From an uncultured Saprospiraceae bacterium (lineage in GTDB: Bacteria; Bacteroidota; Bacteroidia; Chitinophagales; Saprospiraceae): a stretch of 64,000 nucleotides of DNA. Shown piece after piece: positions 6,523 to 50,904 of this stretch. The stretch lies in NCBI GenBank assembly GCA_937928045.1, contig CALFWO010000057.1, forward strand, positions 62,001 to 126,000. The letters are read 5' to 3'. The position numbers were made by a program, and so were the translations under genes. Within the stretch, counting starts at the first letter, position 1; each line of letters starts with the position of its first letter. Under the pieces are notes generated by a model. It searched no databases. It was not told the origin of the DNA and saw only the letters and a list, made by a program, of their open reading frames with translations.

Positions 6523-6540
6523 ATTTCACTAGTTTTGGCC

Positions 6541-8013
6541 ATGCGAAAATTACGACGGCTGTTACTTCGATTTTTGGGGCTCATCTTACTTGGAATATTG
6601 ATTGTGTTGGTCTACAATACTTTGACTTTTAATTCCAAACAATCTGAAGTCGAAGCATTTAACCCGCCGCCAATCCCACCCAATGCCGTTAGTCATTTAC
6701 AATCGGCTATTAGAATACCTACCATCTCTGAAGCCGGAAAAGTTGACAGCAGTGTATTTTTTCAATTCAATAAATTTCTACAAAGTACTTTTCCATTGGT
6801 AGATTCTCTTTTGGAACATCATACCATCAATGACTTTTCACACATTTATCACTGGAAAGGAAAAGATGAATCATTGGAACCAATATTGTTGATTGCTCAC
6901 TTAGACGTAGTGCCCGTTGAATCCTCTAGCGAAAAAGAATGGAAACAATCGCCCTTCGGTGGAGTTCTTGCGGATGGATACATCTGGGGCAGAGGAGCAC
7001 TTGATGACAAACTCAATGTCGTAGGTTTAATGGAATCTGCAGAATTACTTTTGGAGCAACAATATCGTCCTACCAGATCAATATATTTTGCCTTTGGTCA
7101 CGATGAAGAAGTAAGTGGAAAAAATGGGGCGATGGCCATGGCTGATTATTTTCAATCCAAAAACATCAACTTCAGTTACGTCATCGATGAAGGGTCTGTT
7201 GTAGTTGAAAAAGCGCTGAAAGGATTAGAGGCTCCAGCGGCTTTGATTGGTATTTCAGAAAAAGGATATGTTAGTCTAGATTTAAAAGTAAATCTTGAAC
7301 AAGGTGGTCATTCTTCAATGCCTCCAAAAACAACAGCCATCGGATTATTGAGTCAAGCTATTTCTAAATTAGATGAAAATCCTTTCCCTGCAAAAGTAGA
7401 TGGTCCAGTTGGAACAATGCTAAATTTTATTGGCCCTGAAATGGAATTTCCTTACAAAACTATATTTGCGAATCGCTGGTTATTTAGCGGTATTTTAGAA
7501 AATCAATTGGCCAATGCTACTGCTAGCAACGCCTTAATTAGAACGACAACTGCACCCACGATCTTGGAAGCTGGAGTGAAAGACAACGTATTGCCTTCAG
7601 AAGCCACAGCCACCATTAATTTTAGAATTATTCCTGGCGAAACCCCAGAGTCTGTTTTAGATTATGTTAAAACATTAATCGATGATGAACGTGTTGGAGT
7701 AATTTTTAATAATCCCAACTTTAAACAAGCTCCTGGAAAATTATCACCTACAGAAGGTTTTGGATTCAATGTATTATCAAATACCATTCGAGAGATTTTT
7801 CCAGAAACTGTTGTTGCCCCAAGTTTAGTTATTGCCGCTACGGATGCCAGACATTATGAAGCATGCTCTGATGCCATCTATCGATTTATGCCGGTAAGTT
7901 TGAAAAAAGAAGAGCTAGGAATGATTCATGGAATTAATGAAAAAATAGCTGTAAGCAGTTATGAAAAATTAATTCAGTTTTATATTCGCTTATTGCAAAA
8001 TAGTACGAGATAA
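6541..8013 (+). CDS. M20 family metallopeptidase (PM20D1 / carboxypeptidase S type)
   Basis: A membrane-anchored dinuclear zinc peptidase of 490 aa. A basic N terminus and one hydrophobic helix (about residues 8-26) are followed by the M20 motifs: AHLDVVPV (H120, D122), GRGALDDK with the bridging D155, and GHDEEVSG with the catalytic and metal acids E189-E190. Length and the long insert match the carboxypeptidase S / PM20D1 branch, which cleaves C-terminal or N-acyl amino acid bonds. The ATG at 6541 is chosen over an upstream TTG at 6535. The physiological substrate cannot be told from the sequence. Confidence 0.92.
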   Translation: MRKLRRLLLRFLGLILLGILIVLVYNTLTFNSKQSEVEAFNPPPIPPNAVSHLQSAIRIPTISEAGKVDSSVFFQFNKFLQSTFPLVDSLLEHHTINDFSHIYHWKGKDESLEPILLIAHLDVVPVESSSEKEWKQSPFGGVLADGYIWGRGALDDKLNVVGLMESAELLLEQQYRPTRSIYFAFGHDEEVSGKNGAMAMADYFQSKNINFSYVIDEGSVVVEKALKGLEAPAALIGISEKGYVSLDLKVNLEQGGHSSMPPKTTAIGLLSQAISKLDENPFPAKVDGPVGTMLNFIGPEMEFPYKTIFANRWLFSGILENQLANATASNALIRTTTAPTILEAGVKDNVLPSEATATINFRIIPGETPESVLDYVKTLIDDERVGVIFNNPNFKQAPGKLSPTEGFGFNVLSNTIREIFPETVVAPSLVIAATDARHYEACSDAIYRFMPVSLKKEELGMIHGINEKIAVSSYEKLIQFYIRLLQNSTR

Positions 8014-8160
8014 GATTTACTTATTTTCTCAAATTGATGTTTGTATTAGTATCATTTTGAATTAGAATTATCCTTTACATTTTTGTCGATGTAGCTAAAA
8101 GAAAGCTGGATGGCATAATTGTCAGAATCCTTTAGGCAAATCGATAAAGTGTAAACTTCA

Positions 8161-8203
8161 ATACATTCTTCAAATAATTAAATTAATTATTTGAAGAATG
8201 TAT
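8161..8203. repeat. Perfect 43-nt palindrome at the PadR gene
   Basis: Bases 8161-8181 are the exact reverse complement of 8183-8203, leaving a single central A at 8182. The outer ends read ATACATTCTTC and GAAGAATGTAT; the middle is almost pure A/T. It covers an in-frame ATG at 8198, and no T-run follows. It may be an operator for the PadR protein encoded directly after it, or an RNA hairpin. Confidence 0.95.
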
Positions 8204-8236
8204 CAATTATCCTTATTTTTCAAAAAAATTGAGTCT

Positions 8237-8536
8237 ATGGCTAGGAATATGTCACTTAATTCTATTTGTGTATTATCAGTACTAGTACAGGAGGATAGAT
8301 ATGGTCTAGAAATTATTGATAAAGTGAAGGAGAATTCTAACATCAAAATTTTGTTGGGAAGCTTGTATAATATTCTAAGTAAGCTTGAAAGAGATGGATT
8401 GCTTACTAGCTATTGGGGTGAAGAAACAGCTGATAGGGGTGGAAATAGAAGAAGATATTATAGGATAACGAAGAATGGAGAGTCCGTACTTAATGAAGTT
8501 CAATATGGGTTAAACAATATGTGGAAAATGGCTTAG
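8237..8536 (+). CDS. PadR family transcriptional regulator
   Basis: A small winged-helix repressor. The segments SLNSICVLSVL, RYGLEIID, LGSLYNILSKLERDGLL and the wing RGGNRRRYYRITKNGESVL match PadR proteins in order. Recognition helix and wing are complete, and the short C-terminal helix places it in the small PadR-s2 group. The frame is open from an ATG at 8198, but that codon lies inside a perfect palindrome, and homology begins around the ATGs at 8237 and 8249, so 8237 is preferred. The following membrane protein starts 20 bases downstream and is probably its target or partner, as PadR genes are usually cotranscribed with a regulated transporter. Confidence 0.88.
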   Translation: MARNMSLNSICVLSVLVQEDRYGLEIIDKVKENSNIKILLGSLYNILSKLERDGLLTSYWGEETADRGGNRRRYYRITKNGESVLNEVQYGLNNMWKMA

Positions 8537-8556
8537 GCTAATCAAATTAATGTCTT

Positions 8557-9108
8557 ATGAAGGTTTTAATACATCTTATTCGAAAATTTAGAATGAAGTT
8601 GTCCATGTTCCGTGAAAATTGGGAAAGGTGGTTAATTATAGGTCAATCGATTGCAGTACTTTTTCTTTTAACACTTTTTTTACTTGGTATTTCAGCTTTT
8701 GAAGATGGTTCAATTGGACAATTAGATCTTAATCCTAATTATTTGGTAATAATTTTAGTTCCGCTAATTATTCTTTCTCCGTTAATAGGTTATTTGATAT
8801 TTAATTTAGGAACATATTTGATAGAGACTCTTTTGTTCAAAGTTGAGTCTGTTCTGATCTATTTTGGAACCAATAATTTTGGAAATATTAATTTCTACAA
8901 ATATTTTTTGCCTAATCGATTTAGAGAAGAAGTAGAAGGTGATATAAAAGAAACAATTAAAAGAATGTATAGAAGTGGTTGCTCAAAGACACATGTGAAA
9001 ATTGTAGTTACTTTCCAGCTTATATTAGTTGCGTTAAGTCTTTTTAGAATTAAAGTTGCAGATTGGCGAAGTGGGGAAAATGATGACATTAAACCTAATG
9101 TGAGATAA
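8557..9108 (+). CDS. Membrane protein downstream of PadR
   Basis: I do not recognise the whole protein. It has a basic N terminus, two strong hydrophobic stretches (about residues 25-47 and 62-90) and a C-terminal hydrophobic helix near 146-160. Between them lies FLPNRFREEVEGDIKETIKRM, which resembles the EEVEGDL signature of permease prefix domain 2, a module found in PadR-linked MacB-like permeases. Here no permease follows; the protein ends at 183 aa. It may be a free-standing form of that prefix module. The segment has low GC compared with its neighbours. Confidence 0.65.
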   Translation: MKVLIHLIRKFRMKLSMFRENWERWLIIGQSIAVLFLLTLFLLGISAFEDGSIGQLDLNPNYLVIILVPLIILSPLIGYLIFNLGTYLIETLLFKVESVLIYFGTNNFGNINFYKYFLPNRFREEVEGDIKETIKRMYRSGCSKTHVKIVVTFQLILVALSLFRIKVADWRSGENDDIKPNVR

Positions 9109-9239
9109 GAAAGTAAATATTTTGTTAAAAGAATCTAACAGGCAAAGAGAACGCTATAGTCGCTATCGCGCCTACATCGTCTTTCGCTAAGCGATAATGT
9201 ACAAATTCTTAAATTGTGCAGAACTTTTAAATAGAACTC

Positions 9240-10154: not shown

Positions 10155-13001
10155 ATGGCGAAGCGGAAAAGCCCAGCGGCTAAAAAAGCTCAGAATTTTA
10201 TCGAGGTGATTGGTGCAAGAGAGCACAACTTAAAGAACTTCGATGTTTATATTCCGCGAAATCAGTTGGTCGTGGTTACCGGTCTCTCGGGCTCAGGGAA
10301 ATCATCCTTAGCTTTCGACACCATCTATGCAGAAGGTCAGCGCAGATACATGGAGACATTCTCCGCCTACGCACGCCAATTCATTGGCTCCATGGAAAGA
10401 CCAGATGTTGAACAAATTAATGGTCTTTCTCCTGTAATCTCCATCGAACAAAAAACAACTGGTCGCAATCCGAGGTCCACAGTTGGTACCATCACGGAGA
10501 TTTACGATTTCATGAGATTGCTTTTCGCAAGAGCAGGTGAAGCTTACTCTTTCAATACTGGAAAAAAAATGGTCAAATACACCGAAGACCAAATGGTGGA
10601 TCATATTTTTTCAACATTCAAAGGGAAAAAAATACTCCTACTTGCTCCACTTGTTCGTTCAAGGAAAGGACATTACCGGGAACTCTTCGACAATATCCGT
10701 AAACAAGGTTTTACTAAAGTTCGAGTGGATGGAGAAGTAGTAGACCTACTCCCGGACATGATGGTGGACCGATACAAAGTCCATGATATTGAAGTGGTGG
10801 TCGATCGCATTAAGATGAGCAAAGATCGGAAGGAGCGATTGCAATCGTCCCTCAGCATGGCGCTAAAAATGGGCGACGGATTATTGCAAGTCATGGATGT
10901 CGATACCAAAAATGTGATTCCATATTCCAAACACTTGATGGATGCAGACACGGGGCTCTCTTACGAAGAGCCTAGTCCAAATTCATTTTCTTTTAACTCT
11001 CCTTACGGAGCTTGCCAAACTTGTAATGGTTTAGGAAAGGTCAATGAGGTGGACATGGATAAGGTGATTCCGGATAAAAGCAAAACCATCAACCAAGTTG
11101 GAATTGTTCCATTCGGAGAAGTTAGAGACAATTGGACTTTCAAACAATTAAGAGCTGTTGCTAAAAAACACAAGTTTTCATTTGCGACTCCGATAAAAGA
11201 TATTCCGAAAAAAGCTTTAGAGATTATCCTCAATGGAGGAGACGACAGCTATAATGTAAACTTGCCGCATAGCTCGCATGACTTTACCTACAACCTTGCT
11301 TACGAAGGATTGATCAGCATGCTGCGTCGTTGGTATCAAGAATCTACTTCTGAAAGAATCCGTCGTTGGTCAGAAGAATTTATGATGATCGCCACATGTC
11401 CGGATTGTAACGGATATCGATTGAAAAAAGAATCGTTGCACTTTAAGCTTAATGAAAAACACATCTCCGAATTGACCCACATGGGAATTAATGAGCTGGG
11501 AGATTGGATGAAAAACTTAGATAAAAAATTAAACAAGCGACAAAAAGCCATCGCTAAAGATGTGCTTAAAGAAATAAATTTAAGAATAGGTTTTTTATTA
11601 CACGTTGGACTCGACTACTTGACCTTGGATCGTCCAGCGAGAACTTTATCCGGAGGAGAATCTCAACGAATTCGCCTTGCCACGCAAATTGGTTCGCAAT
11701 TAACAGGAATCACTTACATCCTTGATGAGCCAAGTATAGGATTGCATCAAAGAGACAACCAGAAGTTAATCCAAGCATTAAGGGAATTGACTGACATAGG
11801 GAATACTGTGCTAGTGGTAGAACATGACAAAGACATTATGCTGGCCTCGGACTACCTGATAGACTTAGGTCCGGGAGCGGGAAAACATGGAGGTCATTTG
11901 GTAGGAGAAGGTACGCCAAAAGTTTTTCTAAAAAACAACTCCATCACTTCCAAGTATTTGAAGGACACCTTAAAGATTGAGACACCGAAGAAAAGAAGAA
12001 AAGGAACTGGCGAATATTTAGAATTAAAAGGCGCAGCAGGCAATAACTTAAAAAAGGTAAATATAAAAATTCCATTGGGCACATTCGTGTGTGTAACTGG
12101 AGTTTCTGGCAGTGGAAAATCAACCTTGATTAATGAAACATTGTATCCAATTCTGAGACAGCATTTTTATAAAAGCATGCGACGTCCCTTGGAATACAAA
12201 AGTATTGAAGGGCTAGATCATTTAGATAAAGTTATAGAAATCAATCAAGCTCCTATCGGACGTACGCCTAGATCAAATCCGGCAACCTACACTGGCGTAT
12301 TCACAGACATTCGATCAATATTTTCTTCGCTACCAGAAGCTAAGATTCGAGGATACAAACCTGGAAGATTTTCATTTAATGTCAAAGGTGGCCGTTGTGA
12401 AGAATGTGGCGGAGGAGGAAAACGAATCATTGAAATGAACTTCTTGCCTGATGTAGCAGTAGATTGCGAAAAATGTTTGGGTAGAAGATATAACCGAGAA
12501 ACTTTAGAAATTCTTTACAAAGGAAAGTCCATATCCGATGTATTAGAAATGACCGTGGAAGAGGCTACTGAATTCTTCAAAAATATTCCTAACATTTTCC
12601 GCAAGATGAAAACTTTGCGTGATGTTGGCTTGGGATACATTACGCTGGGTCAACAAGCCACTACCCTTTCCGGAGGAGAAGCGCAACGAGTCAAACTCTC
12701 TGAAGAATTAAGCAAAAGGGATACTGGCCAAACGCTATACATCCTGGACGAACCCACCACAGGATTACACTTCCAAGATGTCAAAAGACTTTTGGATGTA
12801 CTGAACAAGTTGGTTGACAAAGGAAATACCATCATTGTGATTGAACACAACCTAGATGTCGTCAAGGTCGCTGATTATATCATTGATATCGGGCCGGAAG
12901 GCGGATTCAAAGGAGGTACTGTTGTTGCTAAAGGAACCCCGGAGCAAATTGTAAAAAGTAAAAAGAGTCATACTGGGATATTTTTGGCGAAAGAATTATA
13001 G
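10155..13001 (+). CDS. uvrA: Excinuclease ABC subunit A
   Basis: UvrA is the damage-sensing ATPase of nucleotide excision repair and loads UvrB at lesions. At 948 aa it has normal length. Both ABC halves are intact: Walker A GLSGSGKSS near residue 45 and GVSGSGKST near 652, signatures LSGGESQR and LSGGEAQR, and Walker B motifs ILDEPSIGL and ILDEPTTGL. The zinc-finger cysteine pairs CQTCNG, CPDCNG, CEECGGGG and CEKCLG are visible. The ATG follows an AAGGCAAT stretch. A potassium channel gene begins 16 bases after the stop. uvrB and uvrC are not in the window. Confidence 0.98.
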   Translation: MAKRKSPAAKKAQNFIEVIGAREHNLKNFDVYIPRNQLVVVTGLSGSGKSSLAFDTIYAEGQRRYMETFSAYARQFIGSMERPDVEQINGLSPVISIEQKTTGRNPRSTVGTITEIYDFMRLLFARAGEAYSFNTGKKMVKYTEDQMVDHIFSTFKGKKILLLAPLVRSRKGHYRELFDNIRKQGFTKVRVDGEVVDLLPDMMVDRYKVHDIEVVVDRIKMSKDRKERLQSSLSMALKMGDGLLQVMDVDTKNVIPYSKHLMDADTGLSYEEPSPNSFSFNSPYGACQTCNGLGKVNEVDMDKVIPDKSKTINQVGIVPFGEVRDNWTFKQLRAVAKKHKFSFATPIKDIPKKALEIILNGGDDSYNVNLPHSSHDFTYNLAYEGLISMLRRWYQESTSERIRRWSEEFMMIATCPDCNGYRLKKESLHFKLNEKHISELTHMGINELGDWMKNLDKKLNKRQKAIAKDVLKEINLRIGFLLHVGLDYLTLDRPARTLSGGESQRIRLATQIGSQLTGITYILDEPSIGLHQRDNQKLIQALRELTDIGNTVLVVEHDKDIMLASDYLIDLGPGAGKHGGHLVGEGTPKVFLKNNSITSKYLKDTLKIETPKKRRKGTGEYLELKGAAGNNLKKVNIKIPLGTFVCVTGVSGSGKSTLINETLYPILRQHFYKSMRRPLEYKSIEGLDHLDKVIEINQAPIGRTPRSNPATYTGVFTDIRSIFSSLPEAKIRGYKPGRFSFNVKGGRCEECGGGGKRIIEMNFLPDVAVDCEKCLGRRYNRETLEILYKGKSISDVLEMTVEEATEFFKNIPNIFRKMKTLRDVGLGYITLGQQATTLSGGEAQRVKLSEELSKRDTGQTLYILDEPTTGLHFQDVKRLLDVLNKLVDKGNTIIVIEHNLDVVKVADYIIDIGPEGGFKGGTVVAKGTPEQIVKSKKSHTGIFLAKEL

Positions 13002-50868: not shown

Positions 50869-50904
50869 AAAAAGCCAATCAAAATCGATTTTGATTGGCT
50901 TTTT
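50869..50904. terminator. Perfect palindromic terminator between the Omp28 and pheT genes
   Basis: A 36-base perfect palindrome centred on TCGA (50885-50888). The stem AAAGCCAATCAAAA pairs with TTTTGATTGGCTTT, and A/T runs at both ends make it work on either strand; it lies 22 bases beyond the Omp28-gene stop and terminates that minus-strand unit before pheT. Confidence 0.9.

Follow-up and report, generated by a model that had tools for sequence, protein, structure and literature searches.

A perfect 43-nt palindrome upstream of a PadR-family gene in Saprospiraceae as a candidate double autoregulatory operator

The PadR locus and its palindrome

The window (the whole stretch of DNA that was analysed, 64 kb) contains an M20 peptidase gene (6535–8013) followed by a gene for a PadR-family regulator of most likely 99 aa (8237–8536, forward strand), a gene for a 183-aa protein (8557–9108, forward strand) and a gene with a 3-keto-disaccharide hydrolase domain. 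The assignment of the regulator to the PadR family, made earlier from the sequence, is borne out by a match to PF03551 (67 bits against a curated cut-off of 27, E 1.5e-18). Its 183-aa partner, which has hydrophobic segments and a C-terminal stretch with a conserved GD and is fused to PadR in two relatives, matched nothing in Pfam at E values up to 10. Both genes, together with the palindrome described below, lie in a low-GC segment of 1226 bp (8014–9239, forward strand; GC 30% versus 38%) that is missing in a genome of the same genus (G001). There, the peptidase and the hydrolase are 74% and 69% identical to those of the window and their genes are about 13 bp apart, indicating that the segment was either gained here or lost there. 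When 20 other hydrolase loci were searched by tblastn, the flanks covered did not contain the peptidase in any of them. A plasmid origin of 8014–9239 was rejected, as plasmid DNA gave no match to it, and mobile-element ends were rejected by eye, neither repeats nor target duplications being seen at 8014 and 9239.

Between the peptidase and PadR genes lies a perfect palindrome of 43 nt (8161–8203), in which the left arm (8161–8181) and the right arm (8183–8203), both annotated without strand and proposed below as operator halves 1 and 2, are 21 nt each, 100% complementary, and separated by a single A. Comparison of the arms thus confirmed what the sequence-only reading had described, and its claim that the palindrome is far longer than chance would give also held, the longest perfect arm in 2000 dinucleotide shuffles of 8014–8236 being 13 against the 21 observed. 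The GC content is 14%. By inspection, the hexamer ATTCTT was spotted at 8165–8170 in the left arm, with AAGAAT at 8194–8199 in the right. The palindrome was the longest perfect short-loop palindrome in the 64-kb window and in 390,961 bases of the same genome (20 other stretches), the runner-up having an arm of 18. Most other long short-loop palindromes of this sample have the look of intrinsic terminators, with a GC-rich stem and A/T tracts, which 8161–8203 does not share; a perfect 36-nt palindrome at 50869–50904 of the window, for instance, is flanked by A and T tracts and is terminator-like. Immediately upstream of the palindrome, an imperfect hairpin is found at 8074–8155 on the forward strand (z −2.3; 6 of 200 shuffles of 8060–8160 fold equally well).

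No second exact copy of the arm is present in the 5.18-Mb assembly, and a dispersed repeat family was rejected on this basis; one match with three mismatches was found, as was one for a backwards control pattern. The arm had no match in viral contigs, and Rfam 15 gave no match in the window at the gathering score. A family-wide DNA search with 8010–8260 returned, besides the window itself, only short chance-like matches (best 2.3e-5, in one genome of 398). The palindrome is internal to a 132-kb contig and its 43 nt fit easily inside an ordinary sequencing read; with one assembly available, a sequencing artefact at this place may still be conceivable. Long palindromes of another kind were observed in the family genome G060 (L171–L174), where eight perfect ones with arms of at least 18 nt (up to 37), unrelated to 8161–8203, lie in 44 kb, among them L172:8618–8692, 8507–8562, 7756–7811 and 10435–10489; four of the eight are inside about 2.7 kb and differ in sequence. 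A 144-kb sample of three further PadR-rich genomes had no palindromes with arms of at least 18 nt.

The palindrome covers an in-frame ATG, as had been pointed out: the longer version of the PadR ORF opens at ATG 8198, within the right arm. The part of that observation concerning the start of the gene did not stand, however, since the N-termini of clade members, MIRLTMPQVYVLS (L034), MVNLSFNQMCVLS (L182) and MNLTKNQMTVLS (L183), align with MARNMSLNSICVLS from ATG 8237, suggesting that PadR probably starts at 8237 and not at 8198. With this start the palindrome lies wholly upstream of the coding region, 34–76 nt before the ATG. Using the −7/−33 consensus (−7 element TAnnTTTG) given in an excerpt of PMC7366714, the best predicted promoter of the window is TTTG-N20-TATTTTTC at 8190–8221 on the forward strand, a score that 7 of 200 shuffles equal. 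Its −33 element TTTG (8190–8193) is inside the right arm, and its −7 element TATTTTTC (8214–8221) has 5 of 6 consensus positions. The palindrome therefore extends from −53 to −11 relative to the first base of the predicted −7 box, and a transcript from this promoter would begin downstream of it. In terms of operator membership, the palindrome is an inverted repeat overlapping the −33 element of the predicted padR promoter.

Relatives of this PadR and their upstream sites

The closest PadR in a contig search was that of L034 (Saprospiraceae MAG JANQQI010000048.1; 56% identity). A profile search of 396 genomes of the order returned six matches at E 1e-15 or better, the window's own included, the others being in G163, G458 (L182), G512 (L183), G018 and G203. 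G163 is probably the same record as L034, because the match coordinates are identical; the PadR of G018 is decayed and has lost its N-terminal part, and that of G203 is another PadR type by sequence. Searching 395 genomes of the class at E 1e-18 added just two further, more distant PadRs, and viral contigs contained one relative of 43% identity. The three usable clade-mates (L034, L182 and L183) have PadRs 55–57% identical to that of the window. Those of L182 and L034 are 56–57% identical to it, and their 12-residue recognition helix is the same or differs by one residue. In L182 (865–1794, minus strand) and L183 (1501–2328), PadR forms a single chain with a membrane segment and a conserved C-terminal stretch that resembles the one in the 183-aa protein, suggesting that the gene pair of the window is a split form of this arrangement. 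At a Pyxidicoccus locus, a membrane-like gene also follows directly after PadR.

Repeats lie across the promoter in two of these clade-mates as well. L182 has a 21-bp site in three copies; two of them, dyads of the AATTCTT-N7-AAGAATT type, abut at −49 to −8 and the third lies at −1 to +19, both counted from the first base of the −7 box TATCTTTG. L034 has two sites, at −56 to −36 and −18 to +2 from its −7 box. The layout CTTG/TTTG-N20-TAnnTTT is common to L034, L182 and the window; the promoter score was matched by 2 of 200 shuffles in L182 and was ordinary in L034 (39 of 200). Upstream of L183, neither a clear repeat pair nor a promoter of the TTG-N20-TAnnTTT kind was found. L182 and L034 thus resemble the window in their PadR, its helix and the placement of repeats across the promoter, but they differ from it in the sites themselves, which have other sequences and are arranged as tandem dyads or as direct repeats, and L182 also differs in having PadR and the membrane partner in one fused protein.

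Whether relatives carrying the same PadR conserve the arms had been put forward as the check on the operator reading. When the letters of the palindrome were compared with the upstream regions of the clade-mates, 136 (L034), 44 (L182) and 97 (L183) of 200 shuffles did as well. This absence of a significant sequence match in three clade-mates of 55–57% PadR identity speaks against the operator reading, short of settling the matter. The pair ATTCTT/AAGAAT is common to the L182 dyad and the window arms, a likeness that was noticed post hoc. With a matrix made from the L182 and L034 sites, the best site in the palindrome ranked 32nd among 127,960 placements in the window, which by our arithmetic corresponds to about 0.06 expected in the region searched and is suggestive only. 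L034, L182 and L183 were not among the five best partners of the window in operator likeness.

Paired repeats upstream of PadR genes in the family

PadR genes are numerous in some genomes of the family, with 32 hits in G016, 41 in G047, 18 in G057 and 18 in G060, and in these four genomes (loci L120–L153) we observed groups of PadR genes that have group-specific paired direct or inverted repeats just before the start. For a survey, 76 PadR upstream regions were extracted and three duplicates dropped, leaving 73 non-redundant regions; a repeat pair was defined as a direct or inverted pair with a score of at least 11 that was matched by 0 of 60 shuffles. Such pairs were found in 32 of 73 PadR upstream regions, compared with 14 of 90 genes of PadR-rich and related genomes (Fisher p 9.7e-5) and 7 of 193 genes of the window's own genome (p 9.7e-15), while 41 of the 73 had none. 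Among the 32, one (L009) is a simple tandem repeat and about five (L006, L007, L011, L133 and L148) are hairpins that resemble terminators, and the control counts are likewise mostly hairpins and simple repeats. Direct pairs at a distance of at least 26 were present in 20 of 73 PadR regions versus 3 of 90 and 2 of 193 controls (p 1.7e-5 and 1.0e-10), in counts that were sorted by hand with the simple repeat L009 dropped on the PadR side only. Distances between the repeats of PadR pairs were mostly 32–35 or 43–47 bp. Since direct pairs cannot form hairpins, a role in DNA binding is the natural reading.

The repeats go with the recognition helix of the PadR encoded next to them: ACTGCAATTACGAATAA with VGSVQSALKRME, TTTGCAAAAGTGAA (inverted) with ISAVHAALRRLE, and TTCTACAAGTATTGA with ISAIHAVMSRLE. 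Across 76 proteins (the 73 plus those of the window, L182 and L183), operator likeness correlated with helix identity (rho 0.246) and with whole-protein identity (rho 0.294), and in each case 0 of 500 permutations reached as high a value; the correlation partly reflects descent, because PadR relatives share ancestry. A strong operator match was seen in 38% of protein pairs with a helix identity of at least 0.9 and in 1.2% of those below 0.3. The groups K, Y, R, Q, NF and S were assigned by eye, and the permutation test is independent of them. Altogether, the six group motifs had a single match in 155 control upstream regions; groups K and Y cross-match, and the short NF motif also matches five other PadR upstream regions. 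In one group, the repeat copies are 89–91% conserved versus 43–51% for spacer and flanks. Another observation concerns a group in which L129, L143 and L019 have an inverted pair of 42–44 bp directly ahead of the start; a weaker one was seen by eye in L157, so that four genomes are involved in all. The other PadR of the window's own genome (L113) has the dyad TAGTACTATGTATTGCATAGTACTA upstream, and a similar dyad is present in L115 of the same genus; these dyads are of the TAGTACTAT...ATAGTACTA type and look close to the motif of cdPadR1.

A limited literature search found no description of family-wide paired PadR operators and no paper joining PadR with the 'permease prefix domain'; for PadR together with Saprospiraceae, the titles and opening lines of abstracts pointed only to unrelated work.

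The proposed operator, its rivals and known PadR systems

On balance, and with moderate confidence, we read the palindrome as a double PadR operator over the −33 region, through which PadR would repress its own operon. In the scheme that we infer from the sequence, two sites of about 21 bp, adjoining each other as mirror images, would each probably take one PadR dimer, and the bound protein would cover the stretch between −53 and −11, counted from where the predicted −7 box begins, including the −33 element. RNA polymerase would thereby be blocked from the putative promoter of the gene pair encoding PadR and the membrane protein, and both genes would be switched on once PadR is released, by some signal or via the partner membrane protein. 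The earlier suggestion that two dimers may bind the palindrome as an operator is in line with the paired operators of relatives, their tracking of the recognition helix and the adjacent dyads of L182, whose position relative to the promoter is nearly equal. The perfect symmetry over 43 bp is more than dimer sites need and is a point against an operator.

The same symmetry makes for strong folding of either strand (z about −6.8 and −6.9), the terminator scan shows no terminator-like site between the peptidase gene and PadR, and a promoter-like pair is present upstream (TTTG at 8056 and TACATTTT at 8076), all of which would suit a role of the palindrome as RNA: transcribed from further upstream, either from the promoter of the M20 peptidase gene or from the one at 8056–8083, it would form a hairpin that insulates or tunes translation or stability of the PadR mRNA. 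We consider such a function unlikely, given that the pairs upstream of PadR relatives are more often direct repeats, which are unable to fold, that the best-scoring promoter would start its transcript past the palindrome, and that the start codon at 8237 sits 33 nt beyond the hairpin; RNA roles may nevertheless arise in read-through transcripts. A hairpin masking the upstream start, as the sequence-only reading had proposed, fares poorly, ATG 8198 being probably not a start and the best predicted promoter lying too far downstream to include the palindrome in its transcript. A terminator of the peptidase gene could also fold as a hairpin and would be rightly placed, between the two forward-strand genes, but the palindrome is only 14% GC, has no T tract directly after it, was not called by the terminator scan and does not resemble the terminators of this genome, which are GC-rich and flanked by A/T, making this very improbable.

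It is also conceivable, if doubtful, that the palindrome is an unselected by-product, that is, either a near-palindrome that template switching turned into a perfect one or a remnant left by the event in which 8014–9239 was acquired. It has no counterpart in the 398 family genomes searched, sits in a low-GC segment absent from the same-genus genome, and has unrelated parallels in the eight long perfect palindromes of G060; against this, it is placed over the predicted −33 element, and its position agrees with that of the tandem sites of L182. A binding site for another regulator or a recombinase would accommodate the absence of a significant match to the clade-mates' sites, and binding of the neighbouring PadR is itself a proposal; as neither a second copy in the genome nor an adjacent integrase-like ORF was recognised, we give this hardly any weight.

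Taken alone, the double operator favoured here would be an ordinary, though unusually symmetric, autoregulatory operator; of more interest is a by-product of the analysis, the wider pattern in which PadR-rich genomes have paired operators specific to PadR groups. A tentative extension, which we put forward as possible at most, is that the family holds a large set of self-contained PadR switches. Every PadR, whether it is one of many paralogues in its genome or is linked to a small membrane protein by coupling or fusion, would have a paired operator of its own that diverged together with its recognition helix. Dozens of mutually insulated circuits might then exist per cell, and in the window's own module the task of sensing, and of detaching PadR from its DNA, would fall to the membrane partner. 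As a natural data set in which operators have changed along with PadR recognition helices, drawn from genomes where PadR hits number up to about 40, the survey could serve to read the rules of DNA recognition by PadR and to identify pairs of repressor and operator that are insulated from others.

Operators with two sites are already known for PadR regulators, and the window site would on this account be a known sort of switch. According to an excerpt of PMC5050560, cdPadR1 of Clostridioides difficile R20291 binds its own promoter at two inverted-repeat sites with a 21-bp motif, which lie 25 and 52 bp ahead of the ORF. The site proposed here is similar in being a pair of AT-rich inverted-repeat sites in the promoter of a PadR gene; in contrast to the two separate, imperfect cdPadR1 sites, as they appear in that excerpt, its 21-nt halves abut as one perfect palindrome and contain no TACT/AGTA. 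LmrR of Lactococcus lactis, which acts on the lmrR and lmrCD operators, is an autoregulated PadR repressor for which two dimers were suggested on the lmrR operator (PMC4534193, in excerpt), and its site, as told in the excerpt of PMC5050560, is of the ATGT/ACAT type with a spacer of 8–10. The window differs from LmrR, so described, in that ACAT and ATGT stand in reversed order at the outer ends of the palindrome, exactly as had been noted before. The classic ATGT-N8-ACAT motif does not occur in the palindrome, TGTA-N8-TACA is found at 8150–8165, overlapping the edge of the left arm, and a motif like ATGT-N8-ACAT was present in just 2 of 31 other PadR upstream regions scanned. By analogy, the proposed window site is of the same kind as the cdPadR1 and LmrR operators, with a layout that is tighter and perfectly symmetric.
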